DNA from: Paracoccus methylovorus
GTDB lineage: Bacteria; Pseudomonadota; Alphaproteobacteria; Rhodobacterales; Rhodobacteraceae
NCBI RefSeq assembly: GCF_016919705.1
Contig: NZ_CP070372.1
Span: 1 to 64,000, forward strand
DNA: 64,000 nt
Reading direction: 5' to 3'
Shown here: piece by piece, positions 43,889 to 59,725 of the stretch
How the letters are laid out: each line of letters starts with the position of its first letter
How positions within the stretch are numbered: the first letter of the stretch is position 1
Program-made: the position numbers and the translations under genes
Notes under the pieces: model-generated
Databases searched by the model: none
What the model was told of the DNA's origin: nothing
Seen by the model: only the letters and a program-made list of their open reading frames with translations

Positions 43889-44071
43889 ACAAGTCTCCAA
43901 TAGGGGGTGGGCGGATGTTCATGACAGCTTGTGACAGTAAACCTTCTGCTTGACCTTAGCAAAGTTATGATAGAATAGTAACATAATGATCGGCATCTAT
44001 CGTTAAAAGTAATGCCGCATCAGCCTAGGACAACAGGTCGCGGGAGGCGACCGTTCAAAGGGAGATCTGGC

Positions 44072-45115
44072 ATGAAGTCACTTATCGCCTCGGCGGCGCT
44101 GGCCCTTTCGGTGCTGGCAAGCCCGGTTATGGCGCAGGTCGTCGACGTTTCGAACGTCAACCAGGACCTGATCGCGACCAAGGACGACAAGAAATATACC
44201 ATCGCAACCGTGGTCAAGGTTGACGGTATCGCATGGTTCGACCGGATGCGCGACGGCGTCGACCAGTTCAAGGCCGACACCGGCCACGACGTCTGGATGA
44301 TCGGCCCATCGCAGGCCGATGCCGCAGCGCAGGTCCAGATCATCGAGAACCTGATCGCGCAGGGCGTCGATGCGATCACCGTGGTTCCCTTTTCGGTCGA
44401 AGCCCTTGAGCCGGTGCTGAAAAAGGCCCGCGAGCGCGGTATCGTCGTGATCTCGCACGAGGCCTCGAACCTGCAAAATACCGATTTCGACCTCGAAGCG
44501 TTCGACAACAAAGCTTATGGCGCCGAACTGATGAAACACCTTGGCGAATCCATGGGCGGTCAGGGCAAATATGTCGCGACGGTCGGCTCGCTGACCTCGA
44601 AAAGCCAGATGGAATGGATCGACGGCGGTGTCGAATACCAGAAAGAGCATTTCCCCGACATGGAAATGGTCGGCGACCGTCTGGAAACCTATGATGACGC
44701 GGGCCAGGACTATACCAAGCTGAAAGAGGCGATGACCGCCTATCCCGATATCACGGGCATTCTTGGCGCGCCGATGCCGACCTCGGCCGGGGCGGGCCGT
44801 CTGATTGCGGAAGGCGGCCTGAAGGACAAGGTGTTCTTTGCCGGCACGGGGCTTCCCTCGGTCGCGGGTGAATATCTGGCCAATGGCGACATCCAGTATA
44901 TCCAGTTCTGGGATCCCGCCGTTGCCGGCTATGCCATGAACATGCTGGCCATCGCCGCGCTTGAAGGCAAGAAGGACGAGATCAAGGCCGGTCTGAACCT
45001 TGGCCTTGGCGGCTATGAAGACCTGCAATCGCCCGAGGCGGACAAGGCCAACCTGCTGTATGGTCAAGGCTGGGTCGGTGTCACCGCCGAGAACATGGAC
45101 CAGTACGACTTCTGA
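44072..45115 (+). CDS. Sugar ABC substrate-binding protein (RhaS/LsrB/RbsB-like)
   Basis: This 347-residue periplasmic binding protein has a signal peptide (MKSLIASAALALSVLASPVM, then AQ) and a Peripla_BP_4 domain. KKYTIATVVKVDGIAWFDRM, NLIAQGVDAITVVPFSVEAL and GIVVISHEASNLQNTD are typical of pentose and autoinducer-2 binders. It heads the operon of importer, mutarotase, kinase, DeoC and ALDH16, so the substrate is probably deoxyribose, ribose or a deoxynucleoside sugar. The ATG at 44072 begins the signal peptide. Confidence 0.9.
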   Translation: MKSLIASAALALSVLASPVMAQVVDVSNVNQDLIATKDDKKYTIATVVKVDGIAWFDRMRDGVDQFKADTGHDVWMIGPSQADAAAQVQIIENLIAQGVDAITVVPFSVEALEPVLKKARERGIVVISHEASNLQNTDFDLEAFDNKAYGAELMKHLGESMGGQGKYVATVGSLTSKSQMEWIDGGVEYQKEHFPDMEMVGDRLETYDDAGQDYTKLKEAMTAYPDITGILGAPMPTSAGAGRLIAEGGLKDKVFFAGTGLPSVAGEYLANGDIQYIQFWDPAVAGYAMNMLAIAALEGKKDEIKAGLNLGLGGYEDLQSPEADKANLLYGQGWVGVTAENMDQYDF

Positions 45116-45128
45116 TCCACGCGGCCTT

Positions 45129-45148
45129 CGCGCCCCGGCTGGGGCGCG
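45129..45148 (+). terminator. Hairpin between the sugar-binding protein and ATPase genes
   Basis: Perfect 8-bp arms (45129-45136 and 45141-45148) around GGCT, 13 bases after the stop, no T-run. Confidence 0.65.
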
Positions 45149-45197
45149 GACCCATGCCCGCCCCTTTGCCGTCAGGCCCTGATTTCCGGGAGAGTGC

Positions 45198-46694
45198 ATG
45201 TCTTCGGATTACCTCATTGAACTGCGCAATATCGGCAAGCGTTTCGGCGGCGTGCAGGCGCTGGACGATGTCTCGCTTGCGATCCGGCCGGGCGAGATCC
45301 ACTGCCTTGCCGGGGAAAACGGTTCGGGCAAATCGACGATCATCAAGGTCATCTCGGGTGTCTATACGCCTGAGCAGGGTGAAATCCTGATCGATGGCAA
45401 ACCGGTTTCGAAGCTTGATCCGATCAAGGCCGTGCAAAGCGGCATCCAGGTAATCTATCAGGATTTCTCGTTGTTCGGGAACCTGACGGTCGCCGAAAAC
45501 CTGGCAATGAACACCTTTGTCCTTGAAGGGCGCAAGGTGATGAAATGGGCCGAATGCCGCAAGATCGCGCAGGCGGCGCTGGATCAGATCGGCGTCAGCA
45601 TGGACCTGAACGCCGAGGTCGGGACCCTGCCCACCGCCAACAAGCAGATCGTGGCCATCGCCCGCGCTGTGATTGCCAACGCCCGTCTTATCATCATGGA
45701 CGAACCGACGACCGCGCTGACCCGGCACGAAGTTGACGCGCTGTTCAAGATCGTTCGCGACCTGCAGGCGCAGGGCATCGCCATCCTGTTCGTCAGCCAC
45801 AAGATGCGCGAGATGCTGGAGATCTCTGAAAGCCTGACCGTATTTCGCAACGGTCGCAAAGTCGCCGAAGGCGATATGAAGGATTACGACGAGGTAGCGA
45901 TCACTCTGGCGATGACCGGCTCGGCAATCGAGACGCCGCCCTATGTCTATGATGCCTCGGATGCCGAAACCGTGCTGGAGGTGCAGGACCTGACCGTGCC
46001 CGACGCGGTCGAGGGCGCCTCACTGACCCTGAAGCGGGGCGAGATCGTGGGGATTTCGGGGCTCATCGGCTCGGGGCGGACCGAATTTGCGAAAGCCCTG
46101 TTCGGGATGGAGCCGCAGTTCACGGGCCAGATGCGGGTGAACGGCAAACCCGTCCATCCCGTGTCCGTGCAAGAGGCCATCGGGCTCGGCATCGCCTATG
46201 TCCCCGAAGATCGCCTGACCGAGGGCCTGTTCCTGTCGCAGTCGATTCAACGCAACATGGTCGTGTCGATCCTGGACACGCTGAAAAAGGGCCTGTTTCT
46301 GGATCGCAACGCGACACATGCGAAAACGGCGGGGATGTTCAAGGCGATGCAGATCGCGGCCCCGGACGACCAGCTTCCCGCCGGCAACCTGTCAGGCGGC
46401 AACGCGCAGCGCGTCATGTTGGGGCGGTGGCTGTTGACGGGCGCAAAGGTCCTGATCCTGAACGGCCCGACGGTTGGTGTCGATGTCGGCTCGAAGGCGA
46501 CGATCCACCGCATTATCCGCAATCTTGCGCAAGAGCAGGGGCTGGCGGTCATCATGATCTCGGACGATGTGCCGGAACTGGTGACGAACTGCTCGCGCAT
46601 CCTTGTCATGCATCGTGGGCGATTTGTGCAGGAGCTCTCGGGCACGGGCACGACCGAAGATGCCGTCAACGACTGCCTGAAGCAGCTGAACTGA
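45198..46694 (+). CDS. Sugar ABC ATPase, RbsA/MglA type (two nucleotide-binding domains)
   Basis: This 498-residue ATPase has two fused ABC domains. The first has GENGSGKSTIIKVISGVYTP and ARLIIMDEPTTALTRHEVDA. The second is degenerate in Walker A (GEIVGISGLIGSGRTEFAKA) and has LSGGNAQRVMLGRWLLTGAK and VLILNGPTVGVDVGSK. In Walker B of the second domain relatives have LILDEPTxGVDVG; here NGP replaces DEP, so that half is probably inactive. It drives the sugar importer with the two downstream permeases. Confidence 0.92.
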   Translation: MSSDYLIELRNIGKRFGGVQALDDVSLAIRPGEIHCLAGENGSGKSTIIKVISGVYTPEQGEILIDGKPVSKLDPIKAVQSGIQVIYQDFSLFGNLTVAENLAMNTFVLEGRKVMKWAECRKIAQAALDQIGVSMDLNAEVGTLPTANKQIVAIARAVIANARLIIMDEPTTALTRHEVDALFKIVRDLQAQGIAILFVSHKMREMLEISESLTVFRNGRKVAEGDMKDYDEVAITLAMTGSAIETPPYVYDASDAETVLEVQDLTVPDAVEGASLTLKRGEIVGISGLIGSGRTEFAKALFGMEPQFTGQMRVNGKPVHPVSVQEAIGLGIAYVPEDRLTEGLFLSQSIQRNMVVSILDTLKKGLFLDRNATHAKTAGMFKAMQIAAPDDQLPAGNLSGGNAQRVMLGRWLLTGAKVLILNGPTVGVDVGSKATIHRIIRNLAQEQGLAVIMISDDVPELVTNCSRILVMHRGRFVQELSGTGTTEDAVNDCLKQLN

Positions 46695-46703
46695 GGGGCG
46701 GAC

Positions 46704-47681
46704 ATGAGAATCTTCCACTCCACCGAATTCGTGATCGCCTGTGTCCTGATCGTCGCGATGGTCGTGATCGGGCTGATCAACCCGGCGTTCTGGAGCATGA
46801 ACAACCTGTTCAGCCTTGCGAAATCGAACGTCATCATCGGAATTCTGGCGCTTGGCGTCTTGCTGGTGATGATCTCGGGCGGGATCGACGTCAGTTTTGC
46901 CGCCATTGCGATTGCCGCTATGTATCTGACCGTGCGCGGCATGGTCTGGCTGGGTGTCGATCAGGTGTTTCTGCCCTTCGTTATTGCCTGCGGCATCGGA
47001 TTGATCTGCGGCGGGCTGAACGCCTTTATTATCGACCGGTTCAAGATGATCCCCCTGATCGTGACGCTTGGCACGGCCTCGATCATCCGCGGTCTGGTGC
47101 TGGGACTGGTCGGGACCTCAATCGTCAACATCAACAAGATGCCGAAAGAGCTGATCGCCTTTGGCAAGACCGAACTGATCACCGTAACCGCTGCGAACGG
47201 CGCGACTTTCGGCCTGACCGCGATGGTGGTCGTCTATCTGGGGATTGCGCTTATCATCCATCTGGTCCTGCGCCATACGATGATCGGGCGGTCGATCTAT
47301 GCCTATGGAGGCGATGCGGAATCGGCCAAGCGGGCAGGGTTCAACACCCACAAGACCATCTGGTTCGTTTACTGCACGGCCGGGCTGCTGGCGGGGTTTG
47401 CGGGCTTGCTGCAGGCTTCGATGATCTGGCAGGCCAACCCGCGCGACTTTGGCGGGATCGAGCTTGACGTGATCGCGGCGGTCGTTCTGGGCGGCGCCTC
47501 GATCTATGGCGGGCGCGGATCGGTGATCGGGACGTTGATCGGGGTGTTCATGCTGGTCATGGTCAAGAACTCGCTGATCCTGATGAAGGTGGACACGACC
47601 TGGCAACGTGTCGTCGTGGGCCTGATCATCATTGTCGCGACGGCCGTTACCGCGCTTCGCGACCGCAAGAAGCTGGCGTAA
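46704..47681 (+). CDS. Sugar ABC permease, RbsC type (first)
   Basis: This 325-residue inner-membrane permease has eight to ten segments. LGVLLVMISGGIDVSFAAIA and GGASIYGGRGSVIGTLIGVF are hallmarks of the RbsC/BPD_transp_2 family. It begins 9 bases after the ATPase stop. Two different permeases follow each other, so the channel is probably a heterodimer, as in autoinducer-2 and rhamnose importers. Confidence 0.92.
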   Translation: MRIFHSTEFVIACVLIVAMVVIGLINPAFWSMNNLFSLAKSNVIIGILALGVLLVMISGGIDVSFAAIAIAAMYLTVRGMVWLGVDQVFLPFVIACGIGLICGGLNAFIIDRFKMIPLIVTLGTASIIRGLVLGLVGTSIVNINKMPKELIAFGKTELITVTAANGATFGLTAMVVVYLGIALIIHLVLRHTMIGRSIYAYGGDAESAKRAGFNTHKTIWFVYCTAGLLAGFAGLLQASMIWQANPRDFGGIELDVIAAVVLGGASIYGGRGSVIGTLIGVFMLVMVKNSLILMKVDTTWQRVVVGLIIIVATAVTALRDRKKLA

Positions 47682-47693
47682 GGGAGGTTGCAG

Positions 47694-48707
47694 ATGGCCC
47701 CACAAACCGACACCCGCAAGCCCTTCCTGAAACGCATCCTTGGCGAGGATGCAGCCATTGCCCAGCTGATCGTCATCACGATCCTGATCTTTCTGGCGAT
47801 GACCGCGCTGAGCCCCGACAAGTTCCTGCGCTATTACAACTTTGAATCCATCACCTACATCATGCCAGAGCTTGGCATCCTGTCGATTGCCATGATGATC
47901 GCGATGCTGACCGGCGGGATCGACCTTTCGGTGGTGGGGATTGCGAACCTGGCCGCCATCTGCGCCGGGCTATACTTCAAGAACCCTGCGGTCGCCGAGG
48001 CGATTGCCGCAGGTGGCCCGATGGTCCTTGTCCATACAGGCATTGCCGCACTGATCGCGCTGGTGATCGGAGTGGGGGCAGGGGCGGCCAACGGGCTGCT
48101 GATCTCACGGCTGAAGATCATCCCGATCCTTGCGACGCTGGGCACCGGGCAGGTGTTTGCGGGCCTTGCGCTGGTCCTGACCGGCGGCACCGCCATCGTC
48201 GGCTTCCCCGAGACATGGAGTTGGCTGGGCAACGGCAAGATACTGGGGATCGCGACGCCCTTCTGGGTGCTGATCGTGGTCGCGGTTTGTGTCTCGATCC
48301 TGCTGTCTCGGACCTCGCTTGGCGTCAAGCTGATGCTGATCGGAACGAATCCGAAGGCGGCGATCTTTGCAGGTATCCGCAGCGATCGGATGGTGCTTTA
48401 CAGCTATATGCTGACCGGGGGGCTGGCGTCGATCGCAGGCATCCTGCTGTCAGGCCGCACCAATGCGGCGAAGGCCGATTTTGGCGGCTCGTATCTGCTT
48501 CAGGCCGTGCTGATCGCCGTGCTTGGCGGAACCAACCCGGCGGGTGGCAGGGGCAGCGTTCTTGGCGTGCTTTTGGCCCTGACCGCGCTGATGCTGCTGT
48601 CCTCGGGGTTCCAGATGGTCCGGGTGTCGAACCACATGATCGACTTCGTGTGGGGCGCCTTCCTGGTGATCGTGATCGCGATCAACTACCTCCGCCGCCA
48701 GAAATGA
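47694..48707 (+). CDS. Sugar ABC permease, RbsC type (second)
   Basis: This 337-residue inner-membrane permease carries LSIAMMIAMLTGGIDLSVVG, LKIIPILATLGTGQVFAGLA and LGGTNPAGGRGSVLGVLLA, the same family as the first. The ATG at 47694 follows GGGAGG; a TTG two codons upstream (47688) is possible. It lies 12 bases after the first permease and 9 bases before the mutarotase-like gene. Confidence 0.92.
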   Translation: MAPQTDTRKPFLKRILGEDAAIAQLIVITILIFLAMTALSPDKFLRYYNFESITYIMPELGILSIAMMIAMLTGGIDLSVVGIANLAAICAGLYFKNPAVAEAIAAGGPMVLVHTGIAALIALVIGVGAGAANGLLISRLKIIPILATLGTGQVFAGLALVLTGGTAIVGFPETWSWLGNGKILGIATPFWVLIVVAVCVSILLSRTSLGVKLMLIGTNPKAAIFAGIRSDRMVLYSYMLTGGLASIAGILLSGRTNAAKADFGGSYLLQAVLIAVLGGTNPAGGRGSVLGVLLALTALMLLSSGFQMVRVSNHMIDFVWGAFLVIVIAINYLRRQK

Positions 48708-48716
48708 GGCCGTGTC

Positions 48717-49808
48717 ATGACTGATGTCACCATGCCGCTGAAACGCAAGGATTTTACCGAAGCCGAGCGTCTGCTGGCCGAAACCGACGGCCTGCGCGTC
48801 ATAGCCTTTGCCTACCCTTCGGGGGTCGAGGCACTGAGGATCGAAAATGCGCGTGGCCAGATCACCGTGCTGCCCTTTCTTGGCCAGATGGTCTGGGACG
48901 CGGTTTTCGATGGGCGACGGCTGACGATGGGGAACGTGTTTCCTTATCCGCGCCGGGGGCCCTCGATCCTCGACACCTATGGCGCCTTTGCCTATCACGC
49001 CGGGCTGCTGCGCAACGGAACGCCGGGTCCGACCGACACCCACCCGCTGCATGGCGAGTTTCCGGTCGCAGAGATGGATCGTGCTTGCGTCGTGATCGGC
49101 ACCGACGCGCAGGGGTCGTTCGTCGAGATCCGGGGCGAGGCCGAATATGTCATGGGCTTCGGCCCGCATTACATGGCACGTCCCCGCATTCGGCTGCACG
49201 CAGGCGCCGCCCTGTTCGAGATCGAGATGCAGGTCGAGAACCTTTCGGCCCACCCGATGGAACTGATGTATATGCTGCACGCAAACTTTGACTTTGTCGC
49301 GGATGGCGAGATTTACCAGCCCGCGCCATGGACGCCCGCGGCGACCAAGGTGCGCAAGGCGATACCGGGCCATGTGACCCCATCACCCGACTTTCTGGCG
49401 CTGCTGGATGATCTGGCCACCAATCCCGCCCGGATGCAAAAGCTGACCGAGCCGGAGCTGTATTCGCCCGAGCAGGTTTTTTATGTCACGGGACTGGGCA
49501 CGGACAACACGGGCCGCACCCGGCAGGTGATGGCGCTGCCAGATGGCGACGGCTTTTCCATCAGCTACCGCCCCGCCGATTTCCCCCATTGCGTGCGCTG
49601 GATCCTCAACGACGGGGATGCGCAGGTTGCGGCCTTTGCGCTGCCCTCGACCTGCGAACCCGAGGGCTATGCCGCCGAAAAGGCCAAGGGCCATGTCCGC
49701 ATGCTGAAACCCGGCGAGGTGCTGAGCTTCCCGGTAAAACTTGGTTATCTGGCCGCCGGCGATTTGCCCGCTGCGCTGGATGAAGTCACGGCGCTGGCCC
49801 GGACATAA
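48717..49808 (+). CDS. Galactose-mutarotase-like protein, DUF4432 family
   Basis: This 363-residue protein has the beta-sandwich of aldose epimerases. GQITVLPFLGQMVWDAVFDG, HPLHGEFPVAEMDRACVVIG and YMLHANFDFVADGEIYQ resemble DUF4432 proteins; His in LHGEF and LHANF sit where mutarotases have catalytic histidines. In this operon it probably interconverts anomers of the imported sugar before phosphorylation. It lies 10 bases before the kinase gene (stop 49808, ATG 49819). Confidence 0.8.
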   Translation: MTDVTMPLKRKDFTEAERLLAETDGLRVIAFAYPSGVEALRIENARGQITVLPFLGQMVWDAVFDGRRLTMGNVFPYPRRGPSILDTYGAFAYHAGLLRNGTPGPTDTHPLHGEFPVAEMDRACVVIGTDAQGSFVEIRGEAEYVMGFGPHYMARPRIRLHAGAALFEIEMQVENLSAHPMELMYMLHANFDFVADGEIYQPAPWTPAATKVRKAIPGHVTPSPDFLALLDDLATNPARMQKLTEPELYSPEQVFYVTGLGTDNTGRTRQVMALPDGDGFSISYRPADFPHCVRWILNDGDAQVAAFALPSTCEPEGYAAEKAKGHVRMLKPGEVLSFPVKLGYLAAGDLPAALDEVTALART

Positions 49809-49818
49809 GGAAACACGG

Positions 49819-50757
49819 ATGACACAGGCAAAGATCGCGGTCGTCGGGTCGAACATGGTCGATCTGATTACCTATACCAGCCGTATGCCCGGCCCCGGCG
49901 AGACGCTGGAGGCTCCCAGCTTTGAGTTGGGCTGCGGCGGCAAGGGCGCCAATCAGGCGGTGGCTGCCGCTAAACTTGGCGCGGATGTGGTCATGGTCAC
50001 AAAGGTTGGCGACGATATCTTTGGCAAGAACACCATGCATAACCTTGAAAGCTTTGGCATCGACACGACCCATGTGACGCAGGTTCAGGGCACGTCCTCG
50101 GGCGTTGCGCCGATCTTTGTCGAGCCCTCGGGTGAAAACTCGATCCTCATCATCAAGGGCGCGAACGCGACGCTGTCGCCGGCCGACGTGGATGCGGCCG
50201 AGGACAAGCTGCGACAGGCCGCCCTGATCCTGATGCAGATGGAGGTGCCGCTTGAGACGGTTTACCACACGATCCGCCGTGCCTCGGAATGGGGCGTCCG
50301 TACGATCCTGAATCCCGCGCCAGCCGCCCCCGATCTGGACGTGACGCGGCTGCGCGGCCTTGATTACCTGATCCCGAACGAGACCGAGCTTGCGATCCTG
50401 TCCGGCCGTGAAACCGGGGACGAAGCGGGCATTGTGGACGCGGCCCGCGCGCTGATGGCGCAAGGCATCGGGCATGTCATCGTGACGCTGGGCGGTCGCG
50501 GGGTCCGGCTGGTCACGGCAGATCAGGTGCAGGCGATCCCCGCCGTGCAGGTCAAGGCCGTCGATACGACAGGGGCCGGCGACGCCTTCATCGGTTCCTT
50601 CGCGCATTTCCTGACGCAGATGGGCGAGCCCGTCGCTGCGCTGCATCAGGCCGTGCGCTTTGCCGCGCATTCCGTCACTGGTCGCGGCACCCAGAAATCC
50701 TACGCGACTGCGGCCGAATTCGCTGACTTCTGCCGCGCATTGGAGACTTCGGTATGA
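49819..50757 (+). CDS. rbsK: Ribokinase-family sugar kinase (ribo- or deoxyribokinase)
   Basis: This 312-residue PfkB-family kinase has KIAVVGSNMVDLITYTSRMP, GGKGANQAVAAAKLGADVVM (first signature) and VDTTGAGDAFIGSFAHFLTQ (second signature with catalytic Asp). It most resembles ribokinase. With DeoC downstream, deoxyribose phosphorylation is more likely than ribose. The 4-base overlap with DeoC couples translation of the two. Confidence 0.88.
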   Translation: MTQAKIAVVGSNMVDLITYTSRMPGPGETLEAPSFELGCGGKGANQAVAAAKLGADVVMVTKVGDDIFGKNTMHNLESFGIDTTHVTQVQGTSSGVAPIFVEPSGENSILIIKGANATLSPADVDAAEDKLRQAALILMQMEVPLETVYHTIRRASEWGVRTILNPAPAAPDLDVTRLRGLDYLIPNETELAILSGRETGDEAGIVDAARALMAQGIGHVIVTLGGRGVRLVTADQVQAIPAVQVKAVDTTGAGDAFIGSFAHFLTQMGEPVAALHQAVRFAAHSVTGRGTQKSYATAAEFADFCRALETSV

Positions 50758-51722
50758 GCGCCGATCAAGAACACCATCTGCGAAACCCCGGCACCCCACT
50801 TCTTCCCGCGATGTTCGAGGGGATCGAGGTCAACCGCTCGGCTGCGGAACGGCGCGCGTCGGGGATTGCTGCCAGCCGCTCGGTCAAGAAGGACCATCAG
50901 GCGGCCTATCTGCTGCGCGCGATCCAGTGTATCGACCTGACGACGCTGGCCGGCGACGACACGCCCGGCAAGGTCGCGCGGCTTTGCGCCAAGGCGCGCC
51001 AACCCCTGCGGCCCGACCTGATCGCAGCATTGGGGATCGGGGACCTGAACCTGACCACCGGCGCCGTCTGCGTCTATCCGACCATGGTCCCTCATGCCGT
51101 GAAGGCGCTGGAGGGTTCGGGCATTCCGGTCGCCTCGGTCGCGACCGGCTTTCCGGCGGGGTTGACCCCACTGCCTCTGCGGCTGGCCGAGATCACCTAT
51201 GCGGTCGAGCAGGGCGCGCGGGAAATCGACATCGTCATCACTCGCGAACACGTTCTGCTGGGCAACTGGCAGGCGCTGTACGATGAAATCGCCGCCATGC
51301 GCGAAGCCTGTGGCGAGGCGCATATGAAAGCGATCCTTGCGACCGGCGATCTTGGGCCGCTGACCAATGTCTATCGCGCCTCGATGGTGGCGATGCAGGC
51401 GGGGTCGGATTTCATCAAGACCTCGACCGGGAAAGAGGGCGTGAACGCGACGCTGCCCGTGTCCCTGACCATGTTGCGCGCGCTGCGCGATTACGGCGAC
51501 CAGACGGGCTACAAGATCGGGTTCAAGCCCGCGGGGGGCCTCAAGACCGCCAAGGATGCGATGAACTGGCTGTTCCTGATGAAAGAGGAACTGGGCGGGC
51601 CCTGGCTGAAGCCTGACCTGTTCCGCATCGGCGCGTCCTCGCTGCTTGGAGATATCGAGCGTCAATTGGAACATCATGTGACGGGTCGCTATGCCAGCGC
51701 CGACCGTCACGCAATGAGCTGA
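50754..51722 (+). CDS. deoC: Deoxyribose-phosphate aldolase
   Basis: This 322-residue class I aldolase splits 2-deoxyribose-5-phosphate to glyceraldehyde-3-phosphate and acetaldehyde. The Schiff-base lysine is in GSDFIKTSTGKEGVNATL, the proton-relay lysine in GYKIGFKPAGGLKTAKDAM. An N-terminal extension of about 50 residues, compared with E. coli DeoC (259), makes it like the longer, eukaryote-type form. It overlaps the kinase stop by 4 bases and precedes the ALDH16 gene by 11 bases. Confidence 0.92.
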   Translation: MSADQEHHLRNPGTPLLPAMFEGIEVNRSAAERRASGIAASRSVKKDHQAAYLLRAIQCIDLTTLAGDDTPGKVARLCAKARQPLRPDLIAALGIGDLNLTTGAVCVYPTMVPHAVKALEGSGIPVASVATGFPAGLTPLPLRLAEITYAVEQGAREIDIVITREHVLLGNWQALYDEIAAMREACGEAHMKAILATGDLGPLTNVYRASMVAMQAGSDFIKTSTGKEGVNATLPVSLTMLRALRDYGDQTGYKIGFKPAGGLKTAKDAMNWLFLMKEELGGPWLKPDLFRIGASSLLGDIERQLEHHVTGRYASADRHAMS

Positions 51723-51733
51723 AGGCCAAGGCG

Positions 51734-54106
51734 ATGAGCATCAAGGATATCATGGAAAACCTGGATTACGGCACGGCCCCGGAATCGGCCGCCGACGTGC
51801 TGGCCTGGCTGGAGGCGCGTGGACGCAAGTTCGGGCATTACATCAACGGCGCATTCGTCGCGGGCAAAGGCCCGGCGATCACCGTGGAGAACCCCGCGAC
51901 CGGGAAACCGTTGGCCGAGATCAACGCCGCAACCCAGCCCGAAGTCGATGCGGCGGTCGGTGCCGCCAAGGCCGCTTTCGCCAAATGGTCGGGCCTGCCG
52001 GGATACGAACGGGCGCGCTTTCTTTACGCCATCGCCCGCACGATCCAGAAGCGCGAGCGGTTCTTTTCGGTGTTGGAAAGCCTCGACAATGGCAAGCCGA
52101 TCCGGGAAAGCCGCACTGCGGATATTCCGCTGGTCGTGCGGCATTTCTATCATCATGCCGGATGGGCCTCGGCGCTGACGACCGAGTTTCCGGGTCAGGT
52201 GGCGCTTGGCGTCTGCGGCCAGATCATCCCGTGGAACTTTCCGCTGCTGATGCTGGCATGGAAGATCGCGCCCGCGCTGGCGGCCGGGAATACGGTTGTG
52301 CTGAAACCCGCCGACCTGACCCCGCTGACCGCCGTGGCCTTCGCCGAGATCCTGTCCGAAATCGGCCTGCCCAAGGGTGTCGTCAACATCGTTCAGGGCG
52401 GAGCCGAGACCGGCGGCTTTATCACCGCGCACAAGGATCTCGCCAAGATCGCCTTTACCGGCTCGACCGCAGTCGGCCGCGAGATCCGCCGTGCCACGGC
52501 GGGATCGGGCAAGAAACTGTCGCTTGAACTGGGCGGCAAGTCGCCCTTTATCATCTGCGCCGATGCCGACCTTGATGCGGCCGTCGAAGGTGTGGTCGAT
52601 GGCATCTGGTTCAATCAGGGCGAGGTCTGCTGCGCCGGGTCGCGTCTTCTGATCCAAGAGGGCGTCGCACCAAAGTTCCTGGCCAAGCTGGATGCGCGCA
52701 TGGCCAAGATCCGCGTCGGCGATCCCTTGGAGAAATCGACCGATATGGGGGCGCTGGTCTCGGCCCGGCAGAAGGCCCGCGTCGAAGGGCTGGTGGCCGA
52801 GGGTGTCGCGCAGGGCGGCGCGCTGGTGCAGGCGCCCGGCAAGGTGCCCGCTTCGGGTCATTTTGTGTCCCCGGCCTATTTCCGGGATGCAGAAAGCGCG
52901 AATGTGGTTTCCCAGCAAGAGATCTTTGGCCCCATTGCGGTGACGCAGACCTTCCGCACGCCCGACGAGGCGGTCGAGCTTGCGAACAACACCGCCTATG
53001 GGCTGTCGGCCTCGATCTGGTCAGAGAATATAAACGTCGCGACCGATATTGCCGCGCGGGTCAAGGCGGGGGTCATCTGGATCAACGCGACCAATGTTTT
53101 TGACGCCAATGCGCCCTTCGGCGGCATGAAGGAAAGCGGCTATGGCCGTGAAGGTGCGCGGGAAGGGATGCGCGAGTATCTGCGCCCGGCGGGCACCAAG
53201 GGTAAGGCCGCAAAACCCATGGTTGTTCAAGTCGTGCCTTTGCCCGTTGTGGGTGCCGATGTGGATGCCACGGTCATTGACCGCACCATCAAGAACTACA
53301 TCGGCGGTGCGCAGGCGCGGCCCGATGGCGGGGCCAGCTATATGATCCACGGGCCAAAGGGCGCGGCGCTTGGGCTTGCCCCCGTCTCGGGGCGCAAGGA
53401 TGTGCGCAATGCTGTCGAGGCGGCGTCGAAGGCGGGCGGTTGGGCCGCGAATGCCCATAATCGCGCGCAGGTGCTGTATTTCCTTGCCGAGAACCTCTCC
53501 CTGCGTGCGGATGAATTCGCGACGGCCTTGCAAGAGGCGACAGGCGTGTCGGCCAAGGTGGCCAGCGCCCAGGTGCAGGCCACGTTGGAGCGCGTGTTCT
53601 ATTATGCCGGCATGGCCGACAAGGACGACGGGCGCACCCACGCGACGAAGCCGCGTCACCTGACGGTTTCGTTGCACGAACCATTCGGCATCGTGGGCGT
53701 CGTGGCCCCGGATGAAGCGCCGCTGCTGTCACTGATGTCGCTGATCCTGCCCTTGATCGCGATGGGGAACCGTGTCGTTGCGGTGCCCTCGGTCGCGCAT
53801 CCGCAGATCGCCGGGTTGCTGTATCAGGTCTTTGACACCTCGGACCTGCCGGGCGGTGTGGTGAACCTTGTGATCGGGCCACGCGACGCCGTGGTGCCCA
53901 CCTTGGCCGAGCATGACGCCGTGGCCGCGTTATGGCACTTCGCCGACGCCGATGGCGCTGCGCAGGCCGAGGCTTTGTCGGCCGGGAACCTGAAGCCCGT
54001 CTGGTCGGCCGAGGGACGCAGTCTGGACTGGGCCGCAGCGCAGGGCGATGAGTTCCTGCGCCGGGCAACGCAGGTCAAGACCATCTGGGTGCCATACGGC
54101 GCATAA
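51734..54106 (+). CDS. Two-domain aldehyde dehydrogenase, ALDH16 type
   Basis: This 790-residue protein has two ALDH domains. The first (about 30-490) is complete: CGQIIPWNFPLLMLAWKIAP, FTGSTAVGREIRR, SLELGGKSPFIICADADLDA (general-base Glu) and FNQGEVCCAGSRLLIQEG (catalytic Cys near 299). The second (about 520-790) keeps the fold (FGIVGVVAPDEAPLLSLMSL) but lacks the cysteine motif. This matches ALDH16, known from bacteria of this group and from animals. Right after DeoC it probably oxidises acetaldehyde to acetate. A hairpin terminator follows. Confidence 0.9.
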   Translation: MSIKDIMENLDYGTAPESAADVLAWLEARGRKFGHYINGAFVAGKGPAITVENPATGKPLAEINAATQPEVDAAVGAAKAAFAKWSGLPGYERARFLYAIARTIQKRERFFSVLESLDNGKPIRESRTADIPLVVRHFYHHAGWASALTTEFPGQVALGVCGQIIPWNFPLLMLAWKIAPALAAGNTVVLKPADLTPLTAVAFAEILSEIGLPKGVVNIVQGGAETGGFITAHKDLAKIAFTGSTAVGREIRRATAGSGKKLSLELGGKSPFIICADADLDAAVEGVVDGIWFNQGEVCCAGSRLLIQEGVAPKFLAKLDARMAKIRVGDPLEKSTDMGALVSARQKARVEGLVAEGVAQGGALVQAPGKVPASGHFVSPAYFRDAESANVVSQQEIFGPIAVTQTFRTPDEAVELANNTAYGLSASIWSENINVATDIAARVKAGVIWINATNVFDANAPFGGMKESGYGREGAREGMREYLRPAGTKGKAAKPMVVQVVPLPVVGADVDATVIDRTIKNYIGGAQARPDGGASYMIHGPKGAALGLAPVSGRKDVRNAVEAASKAGGWAANAHNRAQVLYFLAENLSLRADEFATALQEATGVSAKVASAQVQATLERVFYYAGMADKDDGRTHATKPRHLTVSLHEPFGIVGVVAPDEAPLLSLMSLILPLIAMGNRVVAVPSVAHPQIAGLLYQVFDTSDLPGGVVNLVIGPRDAVVPTLAEHDAVAALWHFADADGAAQAEALSAGNLKPVWSAEGRSLDWAAAQGDEFLRRATQVKTIWVPYGA

Positions 54107-54146: not shown

Positions 54147-54373
54147 TCATCTCTGCCGCTTGGTTCAGCCGCAAAGCCCTTGCGTCAACCGACGACTGCT
54201 TATTTTCCACGCCCACGATCCAGCAAGTGAAATAATCAGTTCACTTGCAGGTTGTGCTGACGTATCTTTGCACTGGCTTTCGCAATCCAGCCGGCCAGCT
54301 TGGGCGCGGGTTCACGGCCGCCACCGCGAAGACGCACGGCGCATTGCACAAGATACCAAAAAGGGATGGGGAC

Positions 54374-55762
54374 ATGGGTTTTCGGGGCGTCTTTTCCGTG
54401 CGGGTCTGCGGGCTGACGGCGATGCTTTGGGCGATTGCCGGGGCAGCGTCTGCACAGGATCCCTTGGCTTCGAATAACGGGCTTTATCCCGGGGCCAGCG
54501 AATGGGACGGCCGGTTTTTGGCCGCGAACCTTGACTACCCGATGCCCGCTTCCAACGACATCGTCCTTGCCTCCAACAGTTGGTCGCCCGCACGCAATCG
54601 CGAGCCGCTGAACGTCGACAGCGCCGCCGAATATGCCGACAGGTTGCGGGTCCACCTGTCCCGGACGCTGCGCACCCTGATTGACAAGCCGGAGGAATGG
54701 GATCCTGTCCGCGCCGGGTGGTACGATCTTGTCTGGAGCGGCGAGGGAAGCCAGACCGGGGACGGGATCGACCCGACTTCGGGCCGCGAGGCGCTGATGA
54801 ATACCTATTCGGGCCAGATCGTCCCGCCAGAAACATTTTCCGAACCATACCGGCCCACCGCGCCGGTGCAAAACCACGCCGTGATCTATTACAACCACGT
54901 TGCCGCGGGGATGCTGGGGCGGCTGTGGTCGAATATCTATACCCCCAACCTGAGTCAGGCAGAGTTTCCGACCGGCTCGATCGTGGTCAAGGTCGAGGCC
55001 GTCACCAACACCGAAAGCAACTGGAATGCGGTTGCCAACAGCGGTCTTTGGCATGTCTTTCGCCCGACGACCGAGGATCAGGCACGCAACGAACCGGATC
55101 TGGTGCCGCAGGTGATCCCGGTCCGGCCGTTCCAGATTGCCGTCAGGGTAAAGGACCCCGTGGCGGCGCCGGAAACGGGCTGGGTCTTTGCTATCTATGT
55201 CCATGACGCCAATGCAGAGGGCGACACGCCCTGGGACCGGTTTGTGCCGGTTGGGCTGCAGTGGGGCAACGACCCGGAACATGCCGAAAACTTTCTGGAC
55301 CTGAAGGGGACGGAGCCCCTGCAGCAAAGCTGGATAAACCCGGCAGCGCCTGCCTTTGCCCGGGACACTTTGGGCTGGGGCGGACGTCTGGCCGGCCCGA
55401 TGGACGTAGCGACCCGGCATAATGTGATCACGGTGTCGGGCAAGCGCTATACCGGCGATACGAGCCTGTCCGCCTCGTCCTGCCAAAGCTGTCATGGCGC
55501 TGCCGAATTCCCCTTTACGGCCAATCTTTATCCTTCGCCCAACCGCATTCTTCCGCGCGATGGACGACCTTTCCTGATGTATGATCCCGGCTCGGCCGAC
55601 TGGGCGCGGTGGTTCCAGAATCGCCCCGGTACCGAGGCGATGTCGGCGAATATCGGCGGGAAGGGGCTGGACTACGACCTGGCGCTGATGAATGCGCTGT
55701 CGACGCATGCGCAGGCTATGGGCATCCAGGCTTTTGTGCGAGGGTCGTTGCATGTGCACTGA
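54374..55762 (+). CDS. Exported protein with one c-type haem motif (CxxCH)
   Basis: This 462-residue exported protein has a signal peptide of about 27 residues (hydrophobic to AGAASA, then QDP). A large unassigned domain fills residues 30-360, with LRVHLSRTLRTLIDKPEEWD and WYDLVWSGEG. A single CQSCH motif follows at 370-374 (SASSCQSCHGAAEFPF), and the end is HVH. A haem would attach covalently in the periplasm; a sixth ligand cannot be named. I do not recognise the family. Its stop is 42 bases before the nucleotidyl cyclase gene, which overlaps a Crp-family gene, so the three look like one operon. It could be a periplasmic redox or gas sensor for the cyclase, but it has no membrane segment to pass the signal. 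Confidence 0.75.
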   Translation: MGFRGVFSVRVCGLTAMLWAIAGAASAQDPLASNNGLYPGASEWDGRFLAANLDYPMPASNDIVLASNSWSPARNREPLNVDSAAEYADRLRVHLSRTLRTLIDKPEEWDPVRAGWYDLVWSGEGSQTGDGIDPTSGREALMNTYSGQIVPPETFSEPYRPTAPVQNHAVIYYNHVAAGMLGRLWSNIYTPNLSQAEFPTGSIVVKVEAVTNTESNWNAVANSGLWHVFRPTTEDQARNEPDLVPQVIPVRPFQIAVRVKDPVAAPETGWVFAIYVHDANAEGDTPWDRFVPVGLQWGNDPEHAENFLDLKGTEPLQQSWINPAAPAFARDTLGWGGRLAGPMDVATRHNVITVSGKRYTGDTSLSASSCQSCHGAAEFPFTANLYPSPNRILPRDGRPFLMYDPGSADWARWFQNRPGTEAMSANIGGKGLDYDLALMNALSTHAQAMGIQAFVRGSLHVH

Positions 55763-55804
55763 ACCGATCCCGCCGATTGCGAAGATGCAAAAAAAGCCGA
55801 CGGC

Positions 55805-58762
55805 ATGACGACGGCATGGTCGGAATATCGCCCCGTCTCGGCCCTGTTCGTCGATCTTGAGAACTCGGTGGGGCAGGTGGCGACCTTGGGCCCCGAGGCC
55901 TATGATCTTGCCTTGCAGGGCTTTCATGCCTTGGTTCAGCGGCAGGTAAGCAACTTTGGCGGCGAAGTCGCGCAATTTATGGGAGATGGGGTGATGTGCC
56001 TGTTCCACTCTCCCTTCGCCAGATTGTCGCGGGCCGAGGCGGCGGTAAGCGCGGCGCAGGAAATCGTTGCCGCGATGAAGGCGCCGGATGCGCCGTTCAG
56101 TGCCGATGTCCGGGTCGGCATCGCCTCGGGCCTGGCGCTTTTCAGTCAGGATGGGCAGGCCGCGGCCAAGCGCATGATCGGCAATTGCATCAATCTGGCC
56201 GCCCGGCTGCAAGCTGCGGCACATCCTGGCGAAACCCTTGTGTGTGACGAAACCAAAGGCGATGCCGAGGCAAGGTTTACCTTTGCCGCAGTGACGGGTC
56301 GGCCGCTCAAGGGGTTTTCCGGGGAAACGCTGTTGTGGTTGGCCTCTGCACCGCGTCCTCAGCCGGTCGAGGAATTACCCCGTCTTGTTCCGGCGCATCT
56401 GACGGACGTTCCCCTGATCGGCCGCGATGCGGAACTGGCACGGCTTGAGGCTACCCTGTCCGAAACCATTGCCGGTCATGGCCATTCTATCGCGGTTGTC
56501 GGCGAGGCGGGAATGGGCAAATCCCGACTGGTGCAAGAGTTTCTGCAGGGGCTGCTTGCGACAAGCTGCGCCCGCATGATTGTAAGTTGCAGCCGCGAAG
56601 GTGCGGGCAGCGATTATCACCCGATCAAGGATTACCTGCAGTGGCAAGCCGGGATAGCGCCCGCACATCAAGGCGATACCCGGGTCGCAAAGCTGGAACG
56701 GCTGTTTCGTCAGGACTGGGGCCTGACCCAGACGCAGGTTTCGGACCTGCTGCTGCTTCTGGATGCGCATTCGGATCAGCAGGCGTCGCTTAGTCAGGAT
56801 CCGATCATTTTGCGGGCATGGCTTTCGCAACTGATTATTCACCGGATCATTCTGGCGCGCGGGACGCAACCGGCATTGGTCATCGTCATCGAGGATGCAC
56901 ATTGGCTGGACCACAGCTCGCGGGAATTGCTTGCAAATCTGCATGCAATCCTGTCCGGACAGCCGATCCTGCTGGTCTTTACCCAACGGCTTGCGGGGGA
57001 AATCGCCACGCCCTGTCTGCCTGCCGATCAGGTCCTGCGGCTCAGACCACTGGGCGAGGCGAATGCGATGAAGATGATCCTTAGCTGTCTGGCCGACCGG
57101 CAGAAGGATGCGGGGATAGTCGAATGGGTCAAGGACAAGTCGAAAGGCGTGCCGCTGTTTCTGTCCGCCTTTGCCGATTTCGTGCGCAAGCGCGACATTC
57201 CCGATCTGGGTCAGCAAAAACTGCCGATGGACCTTTTGGATCTGTGCGAACAAAGCCTGATCAATCTGCCCATCGCCACCCGGCGCTTTGCACAGGCGGC
57301 GGCCGTCATGGGCTCGACCTTTGATCCCGAACTTGTCGCTGCGCTGATGGGCGATACCAAGGCGCAGATGGACAGCCATATCCAACGGCTTTCACAGGAA
57401 AATCTGGCCGCCAGACGATCCGGTCGCGGCGGGCTGGACTTTGCGCATGATCTGGTTCGCGAGGCGATCTATGGCAATCTAAGCCAGCAGTTGCGCCAAA
57501 GGCTGCATGGCGAACTTGCCGATCTGATGCGGAAAACCCGGCCCGATGCGCCATCCCATCTGCTTGCCCTGCATTACGAGCGCGCCGAACGGAACGCCGA
57601 TGCCATTGCCCAACTGGTGAATGCCAGCGTTGCGGCGGTGCGCGTCGGTGCCTTGCGCGAAGCCCGCGATCATCTGGCCAAGGCCTTTGAATTGCTGGAA
57701 CGCCTGCAGCCCGGCCTCGACAAGCTGCATCAGGAGCTGCTTTTGCGCAGTGTCGAGGGGCCGCTTCACATGATCCTTGGCGGGCCGGGCAATCTGGCCT
57801 TCGGCACCGCGCAGCACCGCTCGATGGAGTTGATGCATCAGCTTGGGATTACCGGCGGGCGGACCCATGTTCTTTATAACTCCGGGCTGCATGACTGGGC
57901 ATGTGCCCGATTGGACGCCGCAGACGAGATCAGCCACGATATCCTGTCGATGCCGGGCGAGGATGAAGAAGCCTTGCTAAGCGGTCACACGCTTGCGGGA
58001 CTGGTGGCATGGCACAAAGGAGATATTGCCGCGGCCAGAGCACAAATGGGCCATGTCATCGCACTTTACCAACCCGACAGACACGCGGCCCTGTTTCCGA
58101 AATATCTCAAGGATTTCGGGGTCTTCAGCCTGTTCTATTCAGCGCTTGCCGCGGCCATTGCAGGCGACCCGGACACCGCCCGCAACTTTGCCGTCCGCGC
58201 CGAGGACCTCAGCGAACGGCTGGGGATCGCGCATGCCAAGGGCTTTGGCAAACTGGCGCGCTTCCTGACCGAGATGTTCTGCGGCGATCCGGACGCCACC
58301 GCCCGGCACGCGACAAGCGGGTTGGAGCTTGCCCGGACCCACCGCTTCCCCGAATTCGAGGCGATGGCGATCTTTGCGCAAGGATGGGCGATGACCCGCA
58401 GCCCATCAACCCATGCCGAGGGGCTGGAAAAGATGATCGCGGGCTTCCAGAACTGGTGCGATACGGAATTCATCGCATGGCAATCCCTGTTCGAAGCCAT
58501 GATCGTTGAAGAGCTGGTTGTTGCCGATCGCCGGGCAGAGGCGGTCGTCCACCTGCGCCAACTCAAGACCCGGCTGGACTGGACCGGAGAGAAGCAGTTC
58601 CTGCCACTGGCTTTGAACGCCGAGGCACGTCTTCTGGCTGCCGATGGGCAACGGATCCCTGCCAGTGCCTGTGCCCAACGCGCGGTCGATCTGGCCAGAA
58701 AAAACGGCATGGCGCTGTGGCTGGCGCGGGCCGAGGACACCTTGTCCGGTCTCGACAGATGA
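55805..58762 (+). CDS. Class III nucleotidyl cyclase fused to AAA-type ATPase and helical repeats
   Basis: This 985-residue cytosolic protein has an N-terminal class III cyclase domain (1-180). Both metal-binding aspartates are present ([11 protein letters not shown]17; [11 protein letters not shown]61), as is the transition-state arginine ([14 protein letters not shown]134), so it should be active. [20 protein letters not shown], Walker A GEAGMGKS (233-240) and Walker [18 protein letters not shown] form a STAND-type ATPase. The rest (about 560-985) is rich in TPR-like helices. Such proteins are signal-integrating ATPase-cyclases. It is followed, with a 4-base overlap, by a Crp-family regulator able to bind a cyclic nucleotide. 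ATP or GTP as substrate is undecided; K169 of GRPLKGF may matter. Confidence 0.87.
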
Positions 58763-59517
58763 GCCCGCCTGCCATGCGCGACGTCGATCGCTTCACACTG
58801 CTGGCCCAGCTTGAACCGGATATCAAACAGCGGGCTGCGGCTGCATTGCGATGGCGCAATTATAGCGCCGGCGAGATCATCATGGGGCCGGACGAAGACA
58901 GCGGCGACGTGTTCTTTCTGGGCTCCGGTCAGATATTCGCCGTGCATTGGACGGAAGACGGCCGCGAGATCATCTTTTCCGCGATCCCCGAGACCGGATA
59001 TTTCGGCGAGCTGATGGCAATCGATGGCGTGCGCCGCTCGTTGTCGGTCTATGCGCGCACGACCGCCAGTCTGGCCATCCTGCCCGGAAGCGTCTTTCAG
59101 GAACTGATGGACATCAGCCCGGCTTTCCGCCGCGCCGTCCTGATCGATCTGGCCAAGAAGGTCCGCGACCTGACCGAGCGGAACTATCAGTTGACGACCT
59201 ATTCTGTCATCGACCGGGTCAAGGCGTTCATCCTGCGCTTCGCGGCCGAAGCCAGCCGTTTGCAGCCCGGCGATCTGTTGCCGGATTTGCCCACCCACGC
59301 CGAAATCGCCGCTCATATCGGGGCGACCCGAGAGGCCGTGAGTCGCGCCTTTTCGACACTGAGACGCAAGAAAATCATCACCGGCAGCCGCCGCGGCCTT
59401 CAGATCAGTGACCCCGAGGCGCTGATGACGCCCTTCGGCACCGACGAGGACGAGGCGTTTTCCGGGTGCCGGCATCCCACCCGGCCGCAGCAGGCCGATA
59501 AAAGAAATACTCATTAA
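58759..59517 (+). CDS. Crp/Fnr-family regulator with intact cyclic-nucleotide pocket
   Basis: This 252-residue regulator has a cNMP-binding domain (20-125) and a C-terminal HTH_Crp (about 150-225). The phosphate-binding cassette reads [20 protein letters not shown] (80-99), with the FGEL glutamate and an arginine-serine pair as in true cAMP receptors. The HTH reads [20 protein letters not shown] then STLRRKKII. No Fnr cysteine cluster is present. The ATG at 58759 overlaps the cyclase stop by 4 bases, so the two are made together; an in-frame ATG at 58774 is possible. It probably responds to the nucleotide made by the neighbouring cyclase. Confidence 0.88.
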
Positions 59518-59554: not shown

Positions 59555-59725
59555 TCACGCCGCGTCCAGCGCCATGCCCTGACAGGCCGCTTGCTGGTGA
59601 AGCCTCTCGTACACGGGGCGATAGCGCGAGTTGTGCATATAGACGCTGAGGGCCGACAGGATCAGATTCAGATCCTCATCCGACAGCAAAGGTTGGAACT
59701 GCGTATCCGATTTTTGGTACGGCAT
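59555..59725 (-). CDS. Small protein of 56 residues, unknown function
   Basis: This is a 56-residue minus-strand gene, preceded by GGGAGAAAG at the proper distance. The protein begins MPYQKSDTQFQPLLSDEDLN, continues LILSALSVYMHNSRYRPVYE and ends CQGMALDAA. The even mix of charged and hydrophobic residues suggests a short helical soluble protein. The coding frame has the GC bias of a real gene. It is convergent with the Crp gene. I do not recognise it. Confidence 0.55.
   Translation of the reverse strand: MPYQKSDTQFQPLLSDEDLNLILSALSVYMHNSRYRPVYERLHQQAACQGMALDAA

Follow-up and report, generated by a model that had tools for sequence, protein, structure and literature searches.

A haem c protein remotely related to cytochrome P460, its AAA_16-type signalling partner and a putative sensing module in Paracoccus methylovorus

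We analyzed a three-gene locus of Paracoccus methylovorus within a 64,000-nucleotide stretch of DNA (positions 1 to 64,000 of contig NZ_CP070372.1, assembly GCF_016919705.1), hereafter called the window. All three genes lie on the + strand. Gene 1 (54374..55762), an open reading frame (ORF) of 462 amino acids, encodes a probably exported mono-haem c protein resembling cytochromes P460 and c'-beta. Gene 2 (55805..58762, 985 amino acids) encodes a class III nucleotidyl cyclase domain, an AAA_16 ATPase domain of the signal transduction ATPase with numerous domains (STAND) type and a long C-terminal region, and gene 3 (58759..59517, 252 amino acids) encodes a Crp-family regulator, recognized by its Pfam domains. 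Gene 1 ends 42 bases before gene 2, whose last 4 bases overlap the start of gene 3, both as described in an earlier reading made from the letters alone (the sequence-only reading). Long antisense ORFs across the module were ruled out as true genes, because homologues in other genomes read in the same + strand frames as genes 1 to 3.

The gene 1 product starts with a signal-peptide-like stretch, judged by eye to span approximately residues 1 to 27, and is probably exported. Its sole CxxCH motif is CQSCH at residues 370 to 374 (55481..55495, + strand), where the sequence-only reading had placed it. In all 78 rows of our haem-protein alignment the motif lies near the C terminus, after the sheet, as in the cytochrome P460/c'-beta superfamily, and the predicted beta-rich fold is common to both. 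The sequence-only reading had assigned this protein to no recognized family; sequence and predicted structure instead suggest a P460/c'-beta-like protein, of recognizable but remote kinship. The superfamily's Pfam model, PF16694, matched 19 of the 34 members of haem-protein set A1 at an E value of 0.01 (best, 1.2e-5), and 3 of 120 homologues have a precomputed PF16694 assignment among the matches listed, while the sequence profile of set A1 matched no PDB chain. Haem attachment and a lysine crosslink are what the sequence would predict. One homologous haem gene (L022:9911-11349) is split between two frames that overlap, which points to a frameshift or an assembly error.

To survey gene neighborhoods, we scanned a genome collection with the haem profile, blind to neighbors; the best 80 of 215 relatives, picked by two sequence patterns, gave 79 loci that were kept. 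A class III cyclase/AAA_16 gene is the neighbor in 24 of the 79 (L004-L024, L032, L033, L055), lying downstream in the same direction in 20 and convergently in four (L015, L016, L017, L055). The haem and cyclase genes adjoin in 24 of 24 close-homologue loci, which agrees with the earlier proposal that the window genes form a module. A giant neighbor replaces the cyclase in eight loci (L025-L031, L082) from methanotrophs, Marinomonas and Campylobacterota. By Pfam, the giants of L025, L027, L030, L031 and L082 are kinase-AAA_16-GAF-GGDEF proteins and that of L026 reads AAA_16-GAF-HisKA-HATPase and also has two REC domains; the contig-cut L028 giant reads kinase-AAA_16, and L029, also contig-cut, GAF-GGDEF only. 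The neighbor in L072 (Polyangiaceae) is a kinase-AAA_16 protein. No AAA_16-type signalling gene was found in 46 of the 79 loci, of which nine have less than 2 kilobases on one side, and the AAA profile used may miss diverged ATPases. Neighbor clustering found no other family common to more than five loci, apart from the haem and cyclase clusters and broad sensor-kinase, ATP-binding cassette (ABC) and antisense clusters. The constant unit is the haem protein with an AAA_16-type signalling protein, not the cyclase with Crp, and functional coupling of genes 1 and 2 is well supported because their adjacency is conserved.

On a haem-protein tree (quick method, midpoint-rooted, with L072 as a long branch), the cyclase-linked rows form one group and the giant-linked rows another. 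Duplicate, weak or partial rows (L001, L003, L021, L022, L033) were left out of the tree; L002 and L007 come from the same genome and are both counted among the 78 haem rows and the 26 cyclases compared. Because the two groups are not sisters, the AAA_16 link may be either old and then lost or of multiple origin, and the tree does not choose. Two further neighbors were seen. A family of approximately 340 residues follows the haem-cyclase pair, at the place of the window's Crp gene, in four loci (L006:14348-15391; L009:13599-13940, contig-cut; L022:14384-15406; L024:14421-15494), and the three members scanned (L006, L022, L024) had no Pfam match. In an Arcobacteraceae bin, the haem gene adjoins not only the giant ATPase/histidine kinase but also another hybrid kinase, in which there are two SBP_bac_3 stretches (L026:6502-9999).

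We then compared the haem pocket with P460 proteins, taking reference sites from PDB rows for the K106L and A131E/Q mutants of Nitrosomonas sp. AL212 P460. By motif and by region-limited alignment, Lys206 (codon 54989..54991, + strand) corresponds to the haem-crosslinking lysine, K106 of AL212 P460, and Ala256 (55139..55141, + strand) to the proton-accepting carboxylate, Glu96 or Asp102 in other P460s and Ala131 in the inactive AL212 protein. Full-length profile-profile comparison of the haem family broke down across insertions (probability, 16.6), and the region-limited comparison placed Lys onto Lys and Asp onto Asp (probability, 36; E value, 0.00038). Pairwise against two P460 sequences, the P460 lysine was paired with Lys206 in 73 and 71 of the 78 rows, and the P460 aspartate with position 256 in 71 and 75. 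One hidden Markov model alignment moves the second strand by two residues, and our preference for the VKD anchor is an alignment judgement.

The lysine is invariant in all 78 rows. At position 256, Asp stands in 60 rows: the 46 for which no partner was found, the 8 with a giant partner, L072 and 5 with a cyclase partner. The other rows have Ala (13) or Ser (5). All 18 Ala/Ser rows, the window's included, belong to one cyclase-partnered branch, and loss of the carboxylate maps to one change on the tree (SH-like approximate likelihood ratio test [SH-aLRT] value of the branch, 97). By the region-limited alignment, the window protein thus has alanine in place of the distal carboxylate of P460s that catalyze hydroxylamine oxidation. 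According to Table 2 of the 2025 superfamily review (PMC11928373), AL212 P460, with Lys and with Ala at the carboxylate position, does not oxidize hydroxylamine, and the Glu96 and Asp102 proteins do. In the 46 loci with no partner found, among them L039, L047 and L061 (Massilia), L035 and L052 (Chitinophaga) and L043 (Nitrosomonas), lysine and carboxylate are both present in 46 of 46, and this broad branch of the large P460-like haem family may include uncharacterized P460-type enzymes.

The gene 2 product matched the Pfam families Guanylate_cyc (2.7e-8) and AAA_16 (4.1e-19). Its catalytic domain (55817..56359, + strand) has D17, Q57, D61, R123, N130 and R134, and its ATPase domain (56411..56977, + strand) has the Walker A motif GEAGMGKS and the Walker B motif VIEDAHW. 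No tetratricopeptide repeat (TPR) model matched the gene 2 product, whose C-terminal region is TPR-like by architecture, and no export or membrane feature was seen in it by eye. The two metal-binding aspartates and the transition-state arginine of class III cyclases, noted by the sequence-only reading and here numbered D17, D61 and R134, are present in all 26 cyclases. The transition-state asparagine (N130) is present in 20 of them, including the window's, with His in five and Ser in one. The window cyclase has Q57 and R123, which we take to be the substrate-specifying positions, instead of the canonical Lys and Asp/Thr pair; the specificity lysine is present in 1 of the 26. The gene 2 product probably makes a cyclic nucleotide.

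Gene 3 encodes a protein with both Crp-family domains above the Pfam cut-off (cNMP_binding, 1.4e-12; HTH_Crp_2, 3.9e-14). The pocket motifs named by the sequence-only reading were recovered as FGEL at residues 82 to 85 and R93-S94, and G83, E84, R93 and S94 are invariant in the five Crp proteins compared. The gene 3 product is likely to be the receptor of the gene 2 nucleotide.

The module is sporadic, as expected for an accessory cassette. In a set of 394 genomes from the family, three contain the haem protein at a minimum of 38% identity (the window's own, G803 and G221); the G221 match is truncated where its contig ends. Counting every kind of match, cyclases turn up in 170 of the 394, and the top foreign one, at 343 bits (next, 226), is the gene 76 base pairs downstream of the haem gene in G803 (locus L162), where a 27% identical Crp occupies the same position as in the window. 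Five of 125 genomes of the genus have a full-length haem gene (the window's, G837, G844, G876 and G009), and two more (G882, G015) have a partial or weak match. The cyclase adjoins in all five full-length carriers and Crp in four (the window, L158, L159 and L160; not L161). The sequence-only reading had staked its proposal on haem homologues standing beside cyclase/Crp pairs, and the full three-gene order does recur in four other genomes (L158, L159, L160, L162). In a class-wide sample of 385 genomes, in which no more than four candidates per genome were scored, the family was found in the window's own genome alone.

An operator-like palindrome with the core GCAAGTGAA-N8-TTCACTTGC (54220..54251, no strand assigned) lies 122 base pairs upstream of the gene 1 start, and the evidence for it is weak. 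The genome has no other perfect copy. Once two mismatches are allowed, however, the pattern occurs at three places per strand, the same as the reversed control, and with three mismatches the window count is 1 against 0.87 by chance. The palindrome was not found upstream of the module in L158, L159, L160 or L162, and its half-site spacing is 10, compared with 6 for Crp. We do not count it as evidence of regulation by Crp. Upstream of the module, window positions 44012-54106 hold a sugar ABC transporter, ribokinase, deoC and aldehyde dehydrogenase, probably for (deoxy)ribose or nucleoside use. A polyhydroxybutyrate (PHB)-depolymerase-type esterase gene lies further downstream, and neither it nor the upstream genes look related to the module. 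Directly downstream of the Crp gene is a 56-residue ORF (59555-59725, - strand).

We give an even chance to an accessory signalling module composed of a periplasmic haem protein, a STAND cyclase partner and a Crp reader. Gene 1 would encode a haem c protein of the periplasm whose cytochrome P460/c'-beta fold is enlarged, and gene 2 a cytoplasmic partner dedicated to it, a STAND-type AAA_16 switch with a class III nucleotidyl cyclase output; the gene 3 regulator would read the cyclic nucleotide and act on a few targets, probably local ones. The haem protein may bind a small ligand without turnover, because its pocket keeps the crosslinkable lysine without the catalytic carboxylate, and an ancestor may have turned the ligand over. 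A diffusible ligand or product would be the simplest route from periplasmic haem to cytoplasmic cyclase. First candidates for the bound ligand would be nitric oxide, hydroxylamine or another nitrogen oxide, suggested by the P460/c'-beta likeness only; a survey of the cytochrome cd1 family (PF02239) gave no support. Across the 125 genus genomes, PF02239 matched with E values below 1e-90 in the window's genome, G882 and G015 and weakly in G837, G844, G876 and G009. A denitrification link through NirS was rejected, as no association appeared across these genomes in this survey, which covered PF02239 alone. We infer the ligand, the cyclase activity and product and the direction of signalling, and prefer gene 1 as input and genes 2 and 3 as transducer, since the catalytic acid disappeared within a partnered group. 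A broader and more tentative proposal is that P460-fold haem proteins are the exported half of two-protein systems whose STAND ATPase half has interchangeable outputs (cyclase, diguanylate cyclase, histidine kinase), and that loss of one catalytic acid turned an ancestral P460-type enzyme into a pure receptor in the cyclase branch.

Several observations weigh against the signalling-module reading. We know of no route from an exported protein to a soluble cyclase. The P460 kinship is remote, because the gene 1 product scores 19.3 bits against the PF16694 gathering cut-off of 27, Foldseek E values never pass 0.001 (best, 2.2e-3) and VIA Z values are below 8 throughout, which according to the tool can mean a mere common arrangement. 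Of the five full-length haem gene carriers in the genus, the four besides the window's genome lack a strong cytochrome cd1 match. The carboxylate is retained in 5 of 23 cyclase-linked and 8 of 8 giant-linked rows, so a protein of this family can have a signalling partner without losing it. With the specificity lysine replaced in 25 of 26 cyclases (Gln in 12, Arg in 5, Glu in 4, Asn in 4), the cyclase product cannot be named. Finally, a Crp homologue was found beside the haem-cyclase pair in 1 of the 24 cyclase loci, L005, which is from the same genome as L160; contigs end within 1.2 kilobases of the cyclase match in six of the 24. The sequence-only reading, which took the three genes for a possibly redox- or gas-responsive module, is partly supported.

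The same scarcity of Crp also counts against a serious rival, in which signals flow the other way: the STAND cyclase would sense a cytoplasmic signal and its nucleotide, through Crp, would control gene 1 as an exported redox or detoxification output. We regard this reverse flow as possible, though short of probable. STAND regulators such as MalT often control adjoining genes, and a layout resembling an operon that begins with gene 1, together with the palindrome 122 base pairs upstream, fits such control. The 46 distant homologues with no partner found, whose lysine and carboxylate suit a stand-alone enzyme, also speak for this rival. However, an enzyme output sits poorly with the loss of the catalytic acid from the derived cyclase-linked branch, and the palindrome is absent in the nearest relative and does not exceed the genome control at two mismatches.

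The same residue bears on a simpler explanation, that gene 1 encodes an ordinary cytochrome P460-type hydroxylamine oxidase whose signalling neighbors reflect shared nitrogen-oxide regulation only. The P460-like fold, the conserved lysine and the carboxylate in 60 of 78 rows are as such an enzyme would have them, but the window protein and 17 other rows have Ala or Ser at the carboxylate, and a natural P460 with Lys and Ala fails to oxidize hydroxylamine (PMC11928373, Table 2); we consider it improbable. An anti-phage, Pycsar-like defence module is very improbable indeed. In PADLOC, the cyclase domain has matches to PycC models (best E value, 7.7e-11) and the nucleotide-binding domain of Crp to PycTIR (5.8e-8), yet these matches are confined to generic cyclase and cyclic nucleotide-binding domains, and the haem protein has no PADLOC match. 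Pycsar membership was rejected, as no TIR or membrane effector adjoins: the genes flanking the cyclase encode the haem protein and a DNA-binding Crp regulator.

Gene 1 as input thus remains our preferred reading, and the module points to a circuit devoted to sensing or control and based on a P460-like haem fold, in a haem protein family tied to three different signalling outputs. The 2025 superfamily review describes the functions of P460s with non-polar pockets as yet to be resolved, and a word search of its text did not return "cyclase" (PMC11928373). In a literature search of open-licence papers, cytochrome P460 with adenylate cyclase gave no match, and the matches with diguanylate cyclase were judged unrelated. 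A non-polar-pocket P460-type protein here gains a genetically fixed partner, which brings its function within reach of a test, namely whether it relays the presence of a ligand to a second-messenger enzyme. The family also offers a natural series for the enzyme-to-sensor question, with the carboxylate present where no partner was found, kept with a partner, and lost with a partner.

Compared with the PF16694 superfamily, the gene 1 product is alike in predicted fold, in the order of Lys, VKD strand and a single CxxCH, in the lysine at the crosslink position and in likely export. It differs in its 462 residues with large insertions (solved chains have about 160 to 200), in the Ala at the carboxylate position, in its score below the Pfam cut-off and in a gene that, in two clades of this haem family, adjoins a signalling-protein gene. 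The gene 2 product has the domain order of class III cyclase-AAA-TPR proteins such as mycobacterial Rv0386, which presumably shares its Gln at the substrate-specificity lysine position, and scores 252 bits against a cut-off of 706 for the TOMM kinase/cyclase fusion TIGR03903. Unlike these, it has no matched helix-turn-helix (HTH) or kinase domain and has a haem-protein gene as neighbor. The gene 3 product shares with E. coli CRP (1hw5/1i5z), whose pocket binds cAMP, the GEL and Arg-Ser pocket residues and the R-E-x3-R motif of the HTH; it reads Leu-Thr by alignment where CRP, in the numbering we take to apply, has T127/S128, and its gene adjoins a presumed cyclase gene. H-NOX proteins with diguanylate cyclases, and soluble guanylate cyclase, likewise tie a haem protein to a second-messenger enzyme, whereas the module described here has a different haem fold, with haem c, in a separate and probably exported polypeptide, and places a STAND-type ATPase in between.
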